Source: a virus
IMG/VR virus record: IMGVR_UViG_3300036863_000017
Span: 1 to 45,179 of that record
Length of the DNA: 45,179 bases
Direction: 5' to 3' (one strand)
The notes under the pieces are model-generated. The model saw nothing but the letters and a program-made list of their open reading frames with translations. It was not told where the DNA came from and made no database searches. How positions within the stretch are numbered: position 1 is the stretch's first letter; the number at the start of each line of letters is the position of its first letter. Positions 1,338 to 17,339 of this stretch are shown here, piece after piece. The position numbers and the translations under genes were made by a program.

Positions 1338-1871
1338 ATGTGTTTACCAGATTTTAAAGAATTTAAGCAAATACCAGAAAATAGTCCTTTAATTGGCTAT
1401 CGAACTTGGAAAACTTCTGTTAGGGATGATAGTTATTTGCTCAAATCAGAATTTCAAGATTATCATTGGAATAAACTAGAGGGACCACATGAAGTATTAA
1501 AAGTAAATTCTGGCATATACGCTTATAATAATTATTATAATTATTATAATAATTATAATAATAATTATTATAATTATTATAATAATAATAATTATAATAA
1601 TAATTATTATAATTATTATAATAATAATAATTATTATAATTATTTAGCCGGAATTATTCATCAATGGGGCAAGACAGCTATTCACTCAATGGGACAACGA
1701 AGTGAATATGCCAAAATAGATACTTTATTCTCTATCAGAAAATTAGATGCAAAAGGTCCAAAAGAATTTTTGGACTGGACTAAAATTTTCAACGAGAAAA
1801 TAAATAAAATTGCAGAATTTTATGGAGCCAAGGTAATTACATGGCAGGACTTTATTGGAATTAATAAATAA
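1338..1871 (+). CDS. Conserved phage protein interrupted by a Tyr/Asn-only tract
   Basis: 177 residues. The N-terminal part (LIGYRTWK, then GPHEVLK and GIYAY) and the C-terminal part (AGIIHQWGKTAIHSMGQRSEYAKI) follow the order seen in a widespread phage protein of unknown function, with G-Y/F-R-x-W, GIYAY and WG...H..G.R.EYA motifs. Between GIYA and the WG motif, residues 63-102 are only Tyr and Asn, encoded by TAT and AAT codons (1524-1643). In relatives, as I remember them, this is a short linker. Its stop overlaps the next start (TAATG). Function unknown. Confidence 0.75.
   Translation: MCLPDFKEFKQIPENSPLIGYRTWKTSVRDDSYLLKSEFQDYHWNKLEGPHEVLKVNSGIYAYNNYYNYYNNYNNNYYNYYNNNNYNNNYYNYYNNNNYYNYLAGIIHQWGKTAIHSMGQRSEYAKIDTLFSIRKLDAKGPKEFLDWTKIFNEKINKIAEFYGAKVITWQDFIGINK
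1524..1643 (+). repeat. A/T-only codon tract (40 TAT/AAT codons)
   Basis: 120 consecutive bases are A or T only, and read in frame as 40 codons that are all TAT or AAT. Units such as TAATAATTATTATAAT recur with irregular phase, as expected of a replication-slippage microsatellite. The tract lengthens the linker of the host gene without breaking its frame. Confidence 0.95.
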
Positions 1872-2584
1872 TGAATCATTCATACATACCAAGTCAAATT
1901 GATTCTACCAAATGTGGAGTATGTAAATATGATGTTATATCACATACAGATATGGCTTCATGTGAAGCATGTTCATACATTGGTAAATGTGATATATTCA
2001 TGACCATGTTAATGTGTCCCGAATGTATCGCAAAAGAGAAGGCACTCCAAACTGAAAATAAGAATGGAGAGGATAAAAGAATTAATGAAGTAATTGAAAG
2101 GTCACGCGCGGTCGATTACTCCATTTCAGTAAAAGAAGATATATTCAATGCACAAACAATATCTATCAATGAATTGAAATTAGCTATTGAAAATGATGTA
2201 AACATCACGAATAAACGATATGAATTGGCTAATCAGTTGATGGATAGATACAAACATTTCAGTAAGATTATATTCGAGAAGCAACAAGAAATATCAGAAG
2301 AATCAACTAAACAAAGGGCAGTTCAAAGTTACTTAAATCAATTGGCTTCTACTTTAAGAACTGAGGAACGGGAAAGACTCAAACTACAAGATATTAATTA
2401 CAAGCCATCTGAAACTAAACCTAAAGTAAGTAAAGTAACTACTAAAAAAGGATTTGATAAAGTCGAATTAGTTGAATGGGCTAATAAAGCCAATGTTCCA
2501 CTCGCGGCTTTACAAATGATATGTGTGGCAAAGAATATGACTCCTGAACAGGCCTACAATCATTTAAAGAGTAAGGGATTATGA
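1871..2584 (+). CDS. Zinc-finger phage protein, unknown function
   Basis: 237 residues. The first 60 hold CGVC, CEAC, a further Cys and CPEC, fitting one or two zinc knuckles. The middle (about 90-180) is charged and likely helical. The C-terminal 40 residues after a Lys-rich linker look like a small helical domain (VELVEWANKANVPLAALQ). A DNA- or protein-binding role in early infection is plausible but inferred. The start overlaps the upstream stop by 1 nt, and the end overlaps the next gene by 4 nt. Confidence 0.75.
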   Translation: MNHSYIPSQIDSTKCGVCKYDVISHTDMASCEACSYIGKCDIFMTMLMCPECIAKEKALQTENKNGEDKRINEVIERSRAVDYSISVKEDIFNAQTISINELKLAIENDVNITNKRYELANQLMDRYKHFSKIIFEKQQEISEESTKQRAVQSYLNQLASTLRTEERERLKLQDINYKPSETKPKVSKVTTKKGFDKVELVEWANKANVPLAALQMICVAKNMTPEQAYNHLKSKGL

Positions 2585-5774: not shown

Positions 5775-5914
5775 AGATAGGAATAGCAATTATTAAGACC
5801 AATATACTAGATGGAATAGAAGTAAATAGTGAAATTTGTTTAGAAGATGATACAATGTTTTCTCTAATAAGAGCTTGTAGAAAATTTGGGTTTAAGGATT
5901 TGATAAAAGAATGA
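5771..5914 (+). CDS. Small hypothetical protein (47 aa)
   Basis: An ATGA overlap at both ends (start 5771 with the upstream stop, stop 5912-5914 with the next start) supports this short frame: MKIGIAIIKTN to RKFGFKDLIKE. Not recognised. Confidence 0.6.
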   Translation: MKIGIAIIKTNILDGIEVNSEICLEDDTMFSLIRACRKFGFKDLIKE

Positions 5915-6882
5915 CTGAGATACTAATACCAAAAAAGAATATTATACTAGATAGTCAAATATTCACTACACTACAGGCTTGCCCACGTTTGTCTGATTTT
6001 ACATTCAATCATAATTTAGTTACTTTAGATGGCAAGTCTAATTCACTTGAAGTAGGTTCACTGGTTCATAAGGTAATGGAAGTCTACAATAGGTCTATTA
6101 TTAATGGCATCAAACGGGACGAAGCAATTGGACATGCACTTATAGCTGGCGAAATATATATTCATGGCTGCAAGTATTGTGCTAATTTTACTTCAGAAAA
6201 TGGAAATAAACCAGAGTGCGGACATCAACCAGACGAATATCCCGGCTTAAAGAATACACCACAAGTAATTGATAAGAATAATCCATTGGAGAAGTACAAA
6301 GTAGGTTGGAAATGGGCATTAGAAACTTGTGAACAATACTTCGATTTTTGGAAAAATGATTCATGGATTCCACTTGAGGTTGAAATAACCAAAGGAGAAA
6401 TATTATATGAAGATGACGAAATTAGAATATTATGGAAGGCAAAGTTTGATAAGATTGTAGATACAAATCAAGGAATCTATCCTATTGATTATAAGACAAT
6501 GAAACAAAATAGAGATACGTTATCTCTAAATAATCAATTTAAAGGTCAATGTCTTTTGGCTAAGACTAGACAAATATGGATTGATAAGATTGGATTTCAA
6601 ACTACATTGGAACCAAAAGATAAGTTCAAGAGAGTTCCAATATCATATTCTGCTGACCAATTACTAGAATGGCAATCACAAGAATTACCTTTCTATGCAA
6701 AAATGATGTTGATGTATAATGAAGTAGGATACTGGCCTCCAAACTATACTCATTGTGAAAACAAATATGGTAAGTGTTTATACTATGAAGATGTATGTAG
6801 AGCAGATAGGGGAATGAGAGAAGAAGAACTTAAATTGCATTTCAAAGTAGGAAAGAAATGGGATATAGGGGATGAAGAATGA
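5911..6882 (+). CDS. PD-(D/E)XK nuclease, Cas4/RecB-like
   Basis: 323 residues. GSLVH (49-53), an acidic residue D180 in KAKFD, and D193-Y-K195 are the ordered motifs of the PD-(D/E)XK nuclease superfamily. C24 near the N-terminus and C282, C289, C296 near the C-terminus are placed as in Cas4/AddB-type nucleases, where four cysteines hold an iron-sulfur cluster. An internal Cys/His insert lies at about 87-104. Such enzymes resect DNA ends. Next to a Sak4-like ATPase and an SSB-like protein, this suggests a phage recombination module. Confidence 0.85.
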   Translation: MTEILIPKKNIILDSQIFTTLQACPRLSDFTFNHNLVTLDGKSNSLEVGSLVHKVMEVYNRSIINGIKRDEAIGHALIAGEIYIHGCKYCANFTSENGNKPECGHQPDEYPGLKNTPQVIDKNNPLEKYKVGWKWALETCEQYFDFWKNDSWIPLEVEITKGEILYEDDEIRILWKAKFDKIVDTNQGIYPIDYKTMKQNRDTLSLNNQFKGQCLLAKTRQIWIDKIGFQTTLEPKDKFKRVPISYSADQLLEWQSQELPFYAKMMLMYNEVGYWPPNYTHCENKYGKCLYYEDVCRADRGMREEELKLHFKVGKKWDIGDEE

Positions 6883-7088
6883 AAATAACTGAAGTAATAA
6901 TTACCATAGAACCAAATGAATCTGAAATAACAAGTGGATTTAAGAAAATACTTTTGATGAGAAATTCACATAAGATATGGAATGTACAAGAGGGTGATGT
7001 TTTCAGAGGATTATTTCCAAGTGAAATAAGATTAGCAAATTTTATTCAAGAAAATGTAATATATAAGTATAATACTAGAGGAGAATAA
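6879..7088 (+). CDS. Hypothetical protein (69 aa)
   Basis: 69 residues between the nuclease and the ATPase, overlapping the first by 4 nt and the second by 1 nt. No recognised motif. Its position inside the recombination module suggests it is expressed together with these genes, nothing more. Confidence 0.6.
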   Translation: MKITEVIITIEPNESEITSGFKKILLMRNSHKIWNVQEGDVFRGLFPSEIRLANFIQENVIYKYNTRGE

Positions 7089-7942
7089 TGAACACATTAG
7101 ACCAAGCAGACCCTAGACTTATATACGCAATGTTCAAGGGCGAACCGGGGACACGTAAATCAACATGTGCATTATCATTTCCTTCTCCACAATATTGGTT
7201 CTCATGGGACCAAAAGATGAATGGAATACTTATTCCAGCTAAACAATGGAATATAGATGTAAAGAAAATTCACTATGATGATTATTCTGATTGGAATGCA
7301 GCTAAGGCTAAACTAGAAGCATTTCAATTAAATTGCGATTATCAAACTTTAGTTTTTGATTCCTTAACTTCATGCGCGGATATGACTTTGAGACAAACAT
7401 TAAAACTGAAAGCAGGAGTAACTCGTCAAAGTGGAGCGAAAGCAGGTAAATTAATTGCAGGTATTTCAATCAACGAAATTGAAGATTATGCTGCTGAATC
7501 TTCTGCTCTACAAGAGTTAATTGCCTTAACAAAAGATATACAGAAATATCAAAAAAGTCGAGGTAAATTTCTCAACATAATTCTAATAGCACATGTGGTT
7601 CAAGCTGAATATCGCAATACAACTACAGGTGAAACTCATATTAGTCGAACAATAGTAACGGCTGGTAAGAAAGTAGCCCCTAAAATACCGGCATATTGTA
7701 GTGAGGTATATCACTTCAATATAAAGAAAGGATTTGAAGCAGATGCAGGAGGTAAATATGCCTTATTGACACAACACACAGGAGATGATTTTGCTCGAAC
7801 TGCACTCCCATTAGATAAGGAGATTATATTTGAGGATAGACCTTTATATCAGGATTATATTTTACCTGCTATAGAGAAAATGTTACCACCAAAACAAACA
7901 AACCAAACACAACAAACCACAACAAAAAACTTTGGAGTTTAG
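7088..7942 (+). CDS. Sak4-like RecA-fold ATPase (AAA_24 type)
   Basis: 284 residues. GEPGTRKS at 18-25 is a Walker A loop, and TLVFDS ending near D91 is Walker B. This arrangement is that of the phage nucleotide-binding AAA_24/Sak4 proteins, RecA-core ATPases with single-strand annealing or recombination activity. The C-terminal Gln/Thr-rich tail (about 267-280) is probably disordered. The gene is followed 3 nt later by an SSB-like gene, the usual partnership for Sak4 proteins. Confidence 0.85.
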   Translation: MNTLDQADPRLIYAMFKGEPGTRKSTCALSFPSPQYWFSWDQKMNGILIPAKQWNIDVKKIHYDDYSDWNAAKAKLEAFQLNCDYQTLVFDSLTSCADMTLRQTLKLKAGVTRQSGAKAGKLIAGISINEIEDYAAESSALQELIALTKDIQKYQKSRGKFLNIILIAHVVQAEYRNTTTGETHISRTIVTAGKKVAPKIPAYCSEVYHFNIKKGFEADAGGKYALLTQHTGDDFARTALPLDKEIIFEDRPLYQDYILPAIEKMLPPKQTNQTQQTTTKNFGV

Positions 7943-9234: not shown

Positions 9235-9405
9235 ATGCCATCACATCCTGATAGGGTAAGACGTAATTATTGTGAACATGAATTTAAAGTTATTCAGGGT
9301 GTGACTGTATCTGACATGATTAAATTTGCATTTTATTGTGTCAAATGTGGTTTCATAGGCAAGTCTTGGTTTCCTGGTATAGATAAAGAACCAGTAAATG
9401 ACTAA
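9235..9405 (+). CDS. Small zinc-ribbon protein (56 aa)
   Basis: ATG at 9235, stop overlapping the polymerase start by 8 nt. Cys and His at YCEH and CVKC make a four-ligand zinc site in 56 residues. It sits immediately before the UDG-polymerase gene, so it is probably translated together with it. Role unknown. Confidence 0.65.
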   Translation: MPSHPDRVRRNYCEHEFKVIQGVTVSDMIKFAFYCVKCGFIGKSWFPGIDKEPVND

Positions 9406-11083
9406 AAAATATGTCCCAGGAATGGGTAATGCCGGGGCAAAATTAATGTTCTTAGGCGAAGCCCCATCATATGATGAAACCATTACAGGTAAACCATTCA
9501 CAGGACCATCTGGTAGGGAATTAGATAAGTTATGTAAAGATTCAGGAATAAATAGAAATGAAGGATGGGTATCAAATGTATTCAAATATGAAATACCATC
9601 TAATCCGAAAGGTAAGAAAATTCCGGCTTGGATTCGCGCGAAGAATATTGGCATTAATGTCGAGGAATCATTAAGTGAATTACAAAATGAAATTAATGCT
9701 ATTAAGCCAAATTGTATATTGGCTCTTGGTGGTACTGCTCTTTGGGCTATTACTGGGAAAACCAAGATTACTAATTATCGTGGTTCTATTATGTTGGGTA
9801 TGGGCCGCAAATGTGTGCCTACTTATCATCCTGCGCACCTATTACATCAAGAAGGAGAAATCAAAGGATATTGGAACAGATATATAATGATATTTGACTT
9901 CAAACGGGCCTATCAACAAAGTAAGTTTGAAGAACTAGTATTACCTCAGAGAACACTTCAAATTTGCAAATCTTCATATGACTTACATGCATTTTATGAA
10001 AGATACAAACATCTGGAAAAAGTTTCCGTGGATATTGAAGCTGGCGGTAGTTGTATTCCTATTTGCATTGGGCTTGCATTTAATAAATCACATGGGTTAT
10101 GCATTCCTTTATGGAGTAACGATGGGATTAGTAATATACCAGATACTGATATGGTCCAAGTGTGGATTAAATTAGCTGAAATATTACAAAGTCATGGAAT
10201 CATAGGACAAAATTTCAATTATGATAAAGATAAAATCAAAAAATTGGGATTTACTATAAAGAAACTAGTGTCTGACACTATGTTAAAGGCATTTGCCATT
10301 AACCCAGAACTTCCTAAAAGACTTGCCTTCAATCAAAGTATATATACTGAGGAACCTTTCTATAAAGATGAAGGAATGTATGAGGGGAAACTAGAAGAAC
10401 TATTTTTAGGCTGTGCGCGAGATGCGTGTGTTACATATGAAGTTGATGAAGGCATGGACCCTGATTTAGATGAATTAGGCCAGAGAGATTTTTATGAAAA
10501 CTTCCTTATGAAATTACCTGAATTTTATGGTGAAATGGAAAATACTGGATTTGGACAAGACATAGTAGTTAGAGATAGATTGATACATAAGTATGTCGAA
10601 TGGGATGAGAAACTTAAATATGAATTATTCAAATTAACTAATCAAGAAGTCAATTGTAATTCACCTAAACAAGTATATTCTCTACTTTTTGATACATTAA
10701 AATGTCCTGTTCGTAGAGGAACTGGTGAGGAAGAACTTACCTCACTTTTAAATCTACAATCTTTTACAGACCAAGATAAAAGAAGAATTGTAGAAATCAT
10801 ACTTGAAGATAGGAGAGTTCGTAAAACATTATCAACTTACTTAATGGCATTACCAGATTTCGATGGAAGAATGCGAACCACATTTTTTCCTTGTTTAGAG
10901 ACTGGACGTAGTTCAACAGGACAACAAGACCCACCTATTAGACCTGTAATGGATGTTAAAACTGGTAAGTTTACTGGTAAGAAGAAAAAAGGACAGAACT
11001 ACAAGGCATTGGGAATGGCATTTCAAACTATGACGAAACATGGTGATATTGGTGCGGATATAAGGGAGATGTTTATTCCATGA
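9398..11083 (+). CDS. UDG-DNA polymerase A, N-terminal half (split gene)
   Basis: 561 residues. Residues 1-170 are a family 4-type uracil-DNA glycosylase domain (GEAP at 20-23, PFTGPSGRE, PTYHPAH at 141-147). Residues 205-350 are a 3'-5' exonuclease, with D212 and E214 (exo I), QNFNYD (exo II) and RDACVTYEV at 341-349 (exo III). The thumb and start of the palm follow. The frame stops right after DIREMFIP, the segment that directly precedes polymerase motif A in family A enzymes. The remainder is encoded at 12024-12968. UDG-polymerase fusions are known in phages such as SPO1. Confidence 0.9.
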   Translation: MTKKYVPGMGNAGAKLMFLGEAPSYDETITGKPFTGPSGRELDKLCKDSGINRNEGWVSNVFKYEIPSNPKGKKIPAWIRAKNIGINVEESLSELQNEINAIKPNCILALGGTALWAITGKTKITNYRGSIMLGMGRKCVPTYHPAHLLHQEGEIKGYWNRYIMIFDFKRAYQQSKFEELVLPQRTLQICKSSYDLHAFYERYKHLEKVSVDIEAGGSCIPICIGLAFNKSHGLCIPLWSNDGISNIPDTDMVQVWIKLAEILQSHGIIGQNFNYDKDKIKKLGFTIKKLVSDTMLKAFAINPELPKRLAFNQSIYTEEPFYKDEGMYEGKLEELFLGCARDACVTYEVDEGMDPDLDELGQRDFYENFLMKLPEFYGEMENTGFGQDIVVRDRLIHKYVEWDEKLKYELFKLTNQEVNCNSPKQVYSLLFDTLKCPVRRGTGEEELTSLLNLQSFTDQDKRRIVEIILEDRRVRKTLSTYLMALPDFDGRMRTTFFPCLETGRSSTGQQDPPIRPVMDVKTGKFTGKKKKGQNYKALGMAFQTMTKHGDIGADIREMFIP

Positions 11084-11253
11084 CTGTGAAAGAACTTATC
11101 AGAAAACTTGAAGGATTACAATGTGATGATTGGAAAATTATAGCTCATTGTTATCCTGATTGGGAAGGACCAGATTTTCTAGCGGAAATTGAATCTCTTG
11201 AACTAGATGAAAATCATAATCAAATTATTATTGAGCTGGATTTACCTTCATGA
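11080..11253 (+). CDS. Small hypothetical protein inside polymerase split (57 aa)
   Basis: First of five small genes between the polymerase halves. ATG at 11080 overlaps the polymerase stop by 4 nt, and its own stop overlaps the next ATG. The sequence (MTVKELIRKLEGLQCDDWKI to IIIELDLPS) looks like a small alpha/beta protein. Short phage proteins of the form VxELIxxLxxxPxDxxV are common; their function is unknown. Confidence 0.65.
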   Translation: MTVKELIRKLEGLQCDDWKIIAHCYPDWEGPDFLAEIESLELDENHNQIIIELDLPS

Positions 11254-11504
11254 ATCGTAGGGAACTATTAAAGTTAGTTGGATTAGGAGTAGTTAATCAT
11301 ACTCTCGATTTAGATAAATTACTATGGATTCCCGGTCAAAAGAAAATATTTATTCCTTCTGGTAAGGAATTAAGTTTATTAGGTATTCCCTACCATATCA
11401 GTGATTGTTCAATGGGAGCATGGCTAGGAATACGACGCAATCAAAATGCTATGAATGAATTAGTAAATCTTATAAGAATAATGGAGAAAAATAAAATAAG
11501 ATGA
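11250..11504 (+). CDS. Capsid-segment-like small protein with RR leader
   Basis: 84 residues. Residues 43-63 (LLGIPYHISDCSMGAWLGIRR) match residues 227-247 of the major capsid protein encoded at 29026-30276 (LFGVPYHHSNASTGTWLGFSR form) at 12 of 21 positions. The N-terminus MNRRELLKLVGLGVV has a twin-arginine-like start followed by a hydrophobic stretch, and a similar start is seen at 15726. WIPGQKKIFIPSG precedes the capsid-like part. Related short phage proteins exist as far as I recall, with unknown function. It is translationally coupled within the polymerase split. Confidence 0.7.
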   Translation: MNRRELLKLVGLGVVNHTLDLDKLLWIPGQKKIFIPSGKELSLLGIPYHISDCSMGAWLGIRRNQNAMNELVNLIRIMEKNKIR

Positions 11505-11662
11505 GTTTAACAAGACAACAATGGATAGAATTATGGAATCACGTATGCAATATAGAACATGCAGCTAAATTCTTAAAATCACCACCTACTAAACAGACTA
11601 TTCTATGGGAAGTAAAGAAGATTAAGGAAATGATTGAATCTGTGATAGGACAAATGGAATGA
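11501..11662 (+). CDS. Small conserved phage protein (53 aa)
   Basis: Starts by ATGA overlap with the upstream gene. MSLTRQQWIELWNHVCNIE and ILWEVKKIKEMIESVIGQME form two amphipathic helices. Short helical proteins of this pattern recur in phage early regions, with no known role. Confidence 0.65.
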   Translation: MSLTRQQWIELWNHVCNIEHAAKFLKSPPTKQTILWEVKKIKEMIESVIGQME

Positions 11663-11817
11663 TTTTTCATTTATTACATGATTGGCACGCAACTGGCAAT
11701 GAAGAAACTAGACATGGAATGGACTACTTCTGCAATGAAAAAGCTGAATTATGGATTGAGCGAAAATGTTGTGTTTGTAACAAAATAAAATGGTTCAAAT
11801 ATAAATTTGGAATATAA
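11659..11817 (+). CDS. Small Cys/His protein (52 aa)
   Basis: ATGA overlap with the upstream gene. HDWH, a Cys and CCVC near the end may form a metal site. The stop lies inside the start region of the next frame. Fourth gene of the cassette that divides the polymerase. Confidence 0.55.
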   Translation: MIFHLLHDWHATGNEETRHGMDYFCNEKAELWIERKCCVCNKIKWFKYKFGI

Positions 11818-12031
11818 AACGACCACAGAAGAATTAAGAAGAAAATTTAATAATGAATTTAGATTAAGTAAATGGCCTGCAACATATGAGGTAGATTCTG
11901 AAACATATGCTAATGTATGTCAAACAATATTTGAATGGGCTGGGGATTTAGGTTTGGTCAAAATAGCAATTGGACCTAATAATGGAATTATGTTCAAAAA
12001 CGTAGAATTAATACTTAAGAAAAATGACTAA
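11807..12031 (+). CDS. Hypothetical protein with TTG start (74 aa)
   Basis: The frame begins with TTG at 11807 because no ATG is available before the conserved-looking part (TEELRRKFNNEFRLSKWPATY). Residues 20-65 (YEVDSETYANVCQTIFEW to IGPNNGIMFKNVEL) look like a real folded small domain. It overlaps the upstream gene by 11 nt and the C-terminal polymerase gene by 8 nt, so translation may be coupled. Confidence 0.65.
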   Translation: MEYKTTTEELRRKFNNEFRLSKWPATYEVDSETYANVCQTIFEWAGDLGLVKIAIGPNNGIMFKNVELILKKND

Positions 12032-12968
12032 TAAATTAGTCTTTATACAAGCAGACAGTAGCCAAGCGGAATCAAGAGTAGTTTTTTTACTAGCCAATGA
12101 CGAACAAGCATTAAAGGATATAGATGAACATGACTATCATGCACTTACTGCATCGTGGTTTTTCGGCGGTAGTGAAAATGATTATAGTAAAAAGATACTT
12201 GGCTATGAATCACCGATTAGGTTTGCAGGGAAAACTTTACGACATGCGGGCCATCTTGGAGCTGGAAAACGTAGAGCAGCAACTGAACTCAATACCCAAG
12301 CAAGGAAGTATAAAATATCTATTCAAATTAATGAGGCTATCGCTGAACGTGCATTAAAAATATTTCATACTAAACAACCTAAAATTCAACAGGTATTCCA
12401 TTTTGAAGTAATCAATTCTCTCAAGATTAATAGGCGACTAGTCGCGCCAGTTCCATATGGCATTAACTCAAAAATAGGAGGTATCCGAACCTTTTATGAA
12501 AGATGGTCAGATGAATTATTTAGGCAAGCATTTAGTTATTTACCTCAGAGAGCAGTGACAGATAATACAAAGGCTTCAGGACTAAGAATAAAGAAATTAA
12601 TTCCTCAAATTAAAATTTACTTAGAAGCACATGATGCCTTACTTTTTGGAGCACCTGAGAATCAGGTCGAGGAATGGTCTGAAATAATTAAATATGAATT
12701 TGAAAGGCCAATTAGATTTGAAAACTGTAGTTTAAGTAGACGTGATTTAATCATACCATGTGAAATTGAAATAGGAGATAATTATCGTCAGTTAAAAAAG
12801 TTCAGTAGAGATATTCCAATTATTAGACCACCTATTATTGAACCTGAATTAGTTCCAGTAAGTATAACAGAAAAATACACTGTTATAGATTTACCTGAAG
12901 ATTCAAAGAAAGATAGTATAATTTATTATGCCAATGAAATACGAGATAGTATTAACAATCCGGAATGA
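12024..12968 (+). CDS. DNA polymerase A, C-terminal half (split gene)
   Basis: 314 residues. KLVFIQADSSQAESRVV carries motif A with catalytic D11. Residues 66-82 (RFAGKTLRHAGHLGAGK) are motif B (O-helix), and H203-D204 in EAHDALLF is motif C. All three catalytic motifs are intact. The sequence starts where the upstream half ends, with only about three extra residues (MTN). The two halves therefore together make one full family A polymerase and probably assemble as two chains. No intein or splice motif was seen. Confidence 0.9.
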   Translation: MTNKLVFIQADSSQAESRVVFLLANDEQALKDIDEHDYHALTASWFFGGSENDYSKKILGYESPIRFAGKTLRHAGHLGAGKRRAATELNTQARKYKISIQINEAIAERALKIFHTKQPKIQQVFHFEVINSLKINRRLVAPVPYGINSKIGGIRTFYERWSDELFRQAFSYLPQRAVTDNTKASGLRIKKLIPQIKIYLEAHDALLFGAPENQVEEWSEIIKYEFERPIRFENCSLSRRDLIIPCEIEIGDNYRQLKKFSRDIPIIRPPIIEPELVPVSITEKYTVIDLPEDSKKDSIIYYANEIRDSINNPE

Positions 12969-16485: not shown

Positions 16486-16926
16486 ATGATAGACTATCTA
16501 GGTTCAGTTAAAGAGTTCCATGAAAAATATGGTCATTATATTTCAAATAAACCAGTTATTCCCCCTGAAAGAGTAATTGAATTACGATATAGATTAATTG
16601 AAGAAGAAATGAATGAGACCCTTGGTGCTCTAAGAGAACTGATGAATGCTAATCCTCTAAATCCAATTAGGGATGACTATTATATTGATTTAGCAGATGG
16701 AATAGCTGATTCAATTGTAGTATTAATGGGAACTATTCTTGCTTTTGGTATTCCTATTGAAGAAGTATTTAAAGAAGTTCACCGTTCAAATATGAGTAAA
16801 TCAACTGAAACTAATGAATATGGTAAGACTATTAAGGGACCAAATTATAGTCCACCAGATATTAAATCAATTATTCATTTATATCTACGAGAAGAACCTA
16901 GAACTAGGAAAGGAAGTTTAGATTAA
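16486..16926 (+). CDS. MazG-like nucleotide pyrophosphohydrolase
   Basis: 146 residues. ATAGGAGAATAAAATG gives a clear Shine-Dalgarno. LIEEEMNET (EExxE type) near residue 38 and the DLADGIADSIVV helix supply the acidic metal ligands of the all-alpha NTP pyrophosphohydrolase (MazG/PRA-PH) superfamily. The C-terminal EVHRSNMSK, then GPNYSPPDI is typical of the phage forms. Phage MazG enzymes are thought to remove noncanonical or signalling nucleotides. Confidence 0.85.
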   Translation: MIDYLGSVKEFHEKYGHYISNKPVIPPERVIELRYRLIEEEMNETLGALRELMNANPLNPIRDDYYIDLADGIADSIVVLMGTILAFGIPIEEVFKEVHRSNMSKSTETNEYGKTIKGPNYSPPDIKSIIHLYLREEPRTRKGSLD

Positions 16927-17252: not shown

Positions 17253-17337
17253 GCCAGCTTGGTGGAATTGGTATACACACAAGACTTAAAATCTTGCGGC
17301 CATTAAGGTCATAAGAGTTCAAATCTCTTAGCTGGCA
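17253..17337 (+). tRNA. tRNA-Leu (UAA)
   Basis: 85 nt with all arms: acceptor GCCAGCT with AGCTGGC (7 pairs), D-arm GTGG...TATAC, anticodon arm CAAGA/TCTTG with loop CTTAAAA (anticodon UAA), a long variable arm as in class II tRNAs, and T-arm AAGAG-TTCAAAT-CTCTT. CCA is not encoded. The phage uses TTA leucine codons heavily, so this tRNA would support its translation. It lies exactly at the convergence of the two transcription fronts. Confidence 0.97.
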
Positions 17338-17339
17338 CT

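Follow-up and report, generated by a model that had tools for sequence, protein, structure and literature searches.

The window, by which we mean the whole 45,179-base stretch of DNA that was analyzed, is a single virus contig, and it carries ORF P0001, in whose middle lies a run of Tyr and Asn codons. The parts of this ORF and the genes beside it are as follows.

1338..1871, + strand: ORF P0001 (177 aa), a small protein of a virus family without a name in Pfam, NCBIfam, or PHROGs; homologues were found
1338..1526, + strand: N-terminal flank, with an MC start, GYRxW, EGPH, and SGIYAY, kept in alignments
1524..1526, + strand: last Tyr codon of GIYAY, the first of the 40 codons in 1524-1643
1527..1643, + strand: Tyr/Asn tract proper, 39 TAT/AAT codons (17 Tyr, 22 Asn)
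1569..1634, + strand: span of two identical 27-base blocks in the tract (1569-1595 and 1608-1634), 39 bases apart, a sign of block duplication
1644..1868, + strand: C-terminal flank, with GIIHQWGKTAIH..GQRSEYA and DAKGPKEFLDW...WQDF, seen in alignments, AlphaFold2 (AF2) confidence mostly >85
1871..2584, + strand: neighbor ORF, a homologue of which also lies near the gene in L163, L166, and L177
3011..5152, + strand: SprT-like and SNF2 helicase, the anchor of the tract-blind scan
5911..6882, + strand: PD-(D/E)XK nuclease superfamily, near the gene in most relatives
7088..7942, + strand: AAA ATPase, a neighbor

The 120 bases at positions 1524 to 1643 are A or T throughout and read in frame with ORF 1338-1871 as 40 codons, each TAT (Tyr) or AAT (Asn); the frame is preserved across them, and they form the linker that joins GIYAY to the WG...H..G.R segment, all of which bears out the initial annotation of this DNA. 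The frame was likewise intact in every full-length tract read in the family. An assembly artefact is unlikely, since the tract recurs in 26 records and two 99.2%-identical contigs have an identical 510-nt gene.

Helicase, nuclease, ATPase, and polymerase neighbors are common to the tract-bearing phage group. In the window, a gap of roughly 940 bases (11084-12023) divides the family A DNA polymerase, which carries a uracil-DNA glycosylase domain at its front, between ORFs 9398-11083 and 12024-12968, and the junction at which this gap falls is continuous in frame in L053 and L240; Rfam gave no intron in this gap, and its two small ORFs are without a Pfam match. Upstream of the P0001 gene lie three inverted repeats (463-492/544-573, 93%; 1070-1102/1122-1154, 88%; and 55-134/219-298, 71%) and a T-rich run near 150-177. 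Where the genes that run rightward give way to the structural genes that run leftward, there is one tRNA-Leu (TAA anticodon; 17253-17338), and the ORF at 16486-16926 matched phosphoribosyl-ATP pyrophosphohydrolase (PRA-PH) with an E value of 2e-10.

A Tyr/Asn-rich stretch at the same site throughout the tract-bearing family

By protein search, alignment search, DNA patterns, and a helicase-anchored scan, we gathered at least 27 distinct P0001-family genes in at least 26 IMG/VR records, the window included; for members with TAC/AAC codons, the pattern scan gives a lower bound. All 27 genes listed had a Tyr/Asn-rich stretch at the same site, its order differing each time. The initial annotation had suggested comparing linker length across homologues, and this length ranged from 8 to 63 residues. 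The shortest tract, that of L244, comprised eight residues and then a Cys, while the tract of L274 contained many residues other than Tyr and Asn, and the L278 gene was cut at the contig end, with only the last tract residues visible. In the eight members compared, the flanks without the tract were 24 to 62% identical to those of the window.

L239 and L240 represent one gene in two records, and two records (the L005/L014 contig and the L162/L272 contig) contain two gene copies each. The L014 copies are located at 2-313 and 1780-2316, one with a TAC/AAC tract and the other with a TAT/AAT tract; the L272 copies are at 5825-6133 and 7255-7818, and the first ends a few residues past the tract. L004 (6001-6507) and L006 (6001-6528) show an early stop codon inside the conserved C-terminal WQDF segment.

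Because many family members were found through patterns containing the tract, a tract-blind test was made; among the searches, only one pattern search, the helicase-anchored scan, and the alignment scan that revealed tract-less relatives were blind to the tract. For the helicase-anchored scan, 80 loci (80 of the 151 SNF2 helicase relatives) were searched with separate profiles of the two flanks. The gene was present in 15 of these loci, as 16 ORFs, and all 16 had Tyr/Asn at the site and none had another type of linker; no P0001-type gene was found in the stretch examined at the remaining 65 loci.

We also scanned 2.9 million viral contigs for at least 20 consecutive TAT/AAT codons and obtained 34 stretches, 27 of which were one-motif microsatellites (minor codon at most 5%, i.e., 95 to 100% one motif) and seven of which were mixed (minor codon 39 to 50%), with all seven located in homologues of the P0001 gene. 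The initial annotation called such tracts rare, and this holds for mixed Tyr/Asn codon tracts in viruses. It also called the tract a microsatellite, a poor name for it, since mixed stretches are confined to the P0001 family and the others are of one motif; furthermore, order, length, and codon class all vary among relatives while the residues stay constant, with Tyr and Asn codons at about 1:1. The occurrence of the tract is far from chance, and the first reading overlooked that the tract is conserved across the family and bears a signature at the protein level.

Tract-less relatives with an ordinary linker

The tract-blind pattern and alignment scan revealed virus relatives with an ordinary linker. 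The Tyr/Asn tract was absent in 30 of the 31 loci of the alignment scan, the 31st being the L004 contig again. In 18 of the 30 tract-less loci, delimited by script, the linker had 8 to 51 residues with at most six Tyr/Asn; the other 12 were judged by eye from the sequence. The same protein was found in each of three pairs of these loci (L298/L299, L301/L302, and L304/L305). A profile of tract-bearing proteins (nine rows, tract removed) matched that of tract-less ones (22 rows) with a probability of 99.1 and an E value of 6e-19. Given this match and the tract-less relatives, the tract is most simply read as a derived replacement of the ordinary linker within one phage group.

Searches elsewhere were negative. 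With P0001, L133, L172, L284, and L283 as tblastn queries, no homologue was found in GenBank phages, nor was one found in plasmids searched with L283. In prokaryote genomes, the profile scan returned 27 stretches, none of them a relative, and the tract-pattern scan returned 21, by eye mostly poly-Tyr or short alternations and none with the downstream motif. Pfam at an E value of 0.1 gave no match for P0001, just two stray matches (one member each) for 17 tract members, and nothing for five more proteins (L167 and four tract-less relatives). NCBIfam had no match for the 22 tract-less relatives, PHROGs none for P0001 or the 31 rows, and PDB searched by sequence nothing below an E value of 0.14. 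The analysis marks out a virus protein family unnamed in any library tested.

Composition and Tyr spacing of the tracts

Tract statistics refer to 22 tracts; those of L239/L240, L244, L272 copy 1, L274, and L278 were found later and are not in them. With three trailing residues of the L162 tract trimmed, the total was 870 rather than 873 residues, of which 405 were Tyr, 412 Asn, and 53 other. Addition of four later tracts (26 in all) gave 455 Tyr, 458 Asn, and 74 other. The initial annotation had regarded such sequences as prone to prion-like assembly; assembly of this protein is putative, and the composition is that of a prion-like domain, with 817 of the 870 residues being Tyr or Asn; across the 22 tracts, complexity was low, Asn was abundant, and charged or aliphatic residues were few.

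The Tyr fraction per tract ranged from 0.38 to 0.60, a tightness that is only suggestive (dispersion P of 0.054). Within tracts, Tyr was evenly spread: the pooled window-5 variance was as low in 3 of 2,000 shuffles, the number of runs as high in 8 of 2,000, and the longest Tyr runs as short in 9 of 2,000, values that are only indicative because duplications make tract residues non-independent. Thus, the 22 tracts display the evenly spaced aromatics of sticker-and-spacer proteins, with residues that are not fully independent. In the AF2 model of P0001, tract residues 69 to 97 had a pLDDT below 50, and the tract, being of low confidence in this prediction, is probably disordered.

Two codon dialects and signs of turnover

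The 22 tracts fell into two classes of 11 tracts each. In the T-class, the third base of Tyr/Asn codons was T in 421 of 421 cases (C in 0), and in the C-class it was C in 386 of 397 (T in 11); outside the tract, C-class genes prefer T (127 of 168 Tyr/Asn codons, 41 with C). Fisher values computed from the codon counts assume independent codons and are given no weight here. A uniform third base is not universal, as L239/L240 mix the dialects at about 22 T to 5 C, counted by eye. On a tree of the flanks, built from 21 of the 22 rows (L014 copy 1, truncated at the 5' end, was omitted), codon class required 8 changes, of which the starred branches impose at least 4, and was no more clustered than shuffled labels (shuffled mean, 7.3 changes). 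Sister pairs of opposite class were L158/L167 and L166/L053. Such wholesale class change suggests re-growth from a short seed, since codon-by-codon point mutation should leave mixtures, and we infer that the tracts have re-grown in this manner.

The window tract contains an internal repeat of 16 residues (p of 0.002 versus shuffles), and the L006 tract contains one of 20 residues. Overall, the longest internal repeat exceeded shuffles (p<0.05) in 9 of the 22 tracts and was not significant in 13. The same odd codon also recurred within a tract more often than expected, giving 37 pairs versus 20.0 expected in the C-class (p of 0.0004) and 8 versus 3.3 in the T-class (p of 0.011). The repeated blocks together with the recurring odd codons indicate in-frame duplication.

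Predicted fold of the flanking domain

AF2 models were obtained for P0001 (pLDDT 80) and for the tract-less relative L284 (pLDDT 88). Foldseek alone yielded no significant match to PDB for either model. With VIA-align, the P0001 model matched Tpt1 (Z of 3.6) and DsbG (Z of 2.4), whereas the L284 model matched DarT entries and Tpt1 at Z values of 4.7 to 5.1, the best being 8baq (a weak Z of 5.1 over 128 residues, 5.4 Å), followed by Arr, SAIP, a CNFy fragment, a diphtheria toxin mutant, and glia maturation factor at Z values of 2.0 to 2.9. Judged from their titles, 9 of the 11 PDB chains matching the L284 model at a Z of at least 2 belong to the ADP-ribosyltransferase superfamily. The predicted domain fold therefore weakly resembles ADP-ribosyltransferases, which we take as a lead rather than an assignment. 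A viral structure library gave two unnamed phage proteins, with E values of 8e-5 and 3e-4.

The Arg of GYR was invariant in 17 of 17 tract members, and the Glu of GYR(A/S)E was kept at 90% or more in the 31-row alignment. This Glu (GYRSE) is missing in L011, L158, L167, and L133, so catalysis may not be conserved, and any putative catalytic role may not be universal in the family.

Weighing the explanations

The Tyr/Asn make-up persists through changes of order, length, and codons, which argues for a selected and probably sticky loop over a chance DNA stutter. On balance, we lean toward a selected, probably self-associating, disordered Tyr/Asn loop that is renewed by repeat turnover. A tolerated selfish repeat, in which slippage expands a short Tyr/Asn stretch in an all-accepting loop without function, is consistent with the duplication signs in part of the tracts, their low AF2 confidence and probable disorder, and their length range (8 to 63 residues). 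We nevertheless consider it unlikely, because the residues are always Tyr and Asn at about 1:1 in two codon dialects, Tyr is evenly spaced, ordinary viral repeats of the motif tend toward a single codon (27 of 34), and no different type of linker occurs in the 16 tract-blind ORFs. It is distinctly improbable that the tract is a contingency locus, at which slippage would alter tract length within a phage population and tune the protein. Tract length and order do vary between all distant relatives, but the frame is preserved in every full-length tract read, and L239 and L240, which are 99.2% identical over 5,140 bases (40 differ), have a 510-nt gene that is identical to the base. The initial annotation had thought that slippage could make virions differ in tract length; rapid tract variation was not seen in this single close pair, whose bearing on the purer tracts is limited because the L239/L240 tract is among the less pure ones.

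Explanations at the nucleic acid level fared worse. The window tract with its flanks folds at -57.4 kcal/mol (z of -10.8 versus dinucleotide shuffles), with arms of 56 nt that are 93% complementary, as would suit a DNA cruciform or an mRNA hairpin. However, mixed TAT/AAT strings all fold in this way (codon-shuffle z of -1.9), and the C-class (TAC/AAC, 11 of the 22 tracts) folds only at 0 to -3.1 kcal/mol. The hairpin energies of T-class tracts were -24 to -53 kcal/mol, and L179 of this class was exceptional, with a codon-shuffle z of -4.9. A hairpin as the function is thus contradicted by the TAC/AAC class and very improbable, and the inability of TAC/AAC tracts to form it indicates that the conserved thing is the protein. 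We give hardly any credence to the idea that the tract is the target of a diversity-generating retroelement with a limited alphabet. Its AAC/AAT codons, in which mostly a single base changes, resemble variable repeats, but the second codon base seldom changes, a tandem-repeat scan of the window found no second such tract as a template, and none of the 26 records, some of which are fragments, contained a reverse transcriptase (PF00078), with control genomes being positive in 3 of 14; for the records examined, a retroelement is therefore contradicted.

Discussion

The selected-loop reading can be set out as follows. The protein is a small one, encoded among the rightward replication genes of a group of tailed phages of roughly 45 kb. 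The tract stands where other members of the wider virus family have an ordinary linker, and the near 1:1 two-residue composition of the tract is preserved as order, length, and codons turn over. Turnover would proceed by in-frame block duplication and deletion, and a tract may sometimes shrink to a short seed and then grow again, which would account for the single third base throughout each tract. Even Tyr stickers among Asn spacers may allow the protein to bind further copies of itself or partner molecules, and this association would concentrate the folded domain with its ADP-ribosyltransferase-like predicted fold. A bolder version, which we regard as rather doubtful, is that a self-assembling two-residue loop in an ADP-ribosyltransferase-like protein, repeatedly lost to a seed and re-grown in either codon dialect, is selected only for its Tyr/Asn make-up and spacing and gathers the phage enzyme into a condensate or fiber during infection; if true, it would be a minimal natural sticker-and-spacer polymer.

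The tracts offer an unusually clean natural case in which low-complexity composition and spacing are kept while sequence and codons are replaced wholesale, and the existence of two codon dialects allows causes acting on the protein to be told apart from causes acting on the DNA, something seldom feasible with tracts of this kind. An alphabet of just Tyr and Asn comes near the smallest one for thinking about prion-like phase behavior, and these loops could therefore be natural test material for sticker-and-spacer ideas.

Among known proteins, the ADP-ribosyltransferase superfamily (DarT, Tpt1, and Arr) shares with the family a weak fold likeness of both models; unlike that superfamily, the family has no such PDB chain by sequence and no Pfam or NCBIfam match, and its activity is putative. 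DUF7666 proteins of phages and giant viruses were weak matches in the viral structures (E values of 0.19 to 1.1), but no Pfam DUF7666 match was obtained at an E value of 0.1 for the 17 tract members, L167, or the four tract-less relatives, and we found no DUF7666 literature among open-licence PMC papers.

In the same literature, we found no relevant paper on Tyr/Asn low-complexity phage proteins. A survey that likewise has predicted prion-like domains in phage proteins (PMC5694896) made its predictions by N and Q bias; the word tyrosine is absent from its main text, and the Tyr/Asn loop family is thus not described there. The low-complexity regions described for prokaryotes and phages in PMC6821194 are the same kind of feature, with a phage mean of 33 residues, but in the part of that work consulted, prokaryotic regions are strongly depleted in Asn and in aromatic residues, which makes a Tyr/Asn tract the opposite of the norm.

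A further likeness is to yeast-prion-type and sticker-and-spacer domains. According to the portions of these sources we drew on, prion-like domains have evenly spread aromatics, with composition and patterning conserved but not sequence (PMC9748015), and the preferred spacer in prion-prone domains is Asn (PMC7865556). The tract is similarly polar and probably disordered, with even aromatics and a composition kept though the order changes. It differs in being about 50% Tyr, versus an aromatic share of 15 to 20% in prion-like domains (PMC9748015), in consisting of essentially two residues with almost no Gln or Gly, and in lying within a folded phage protein domain.
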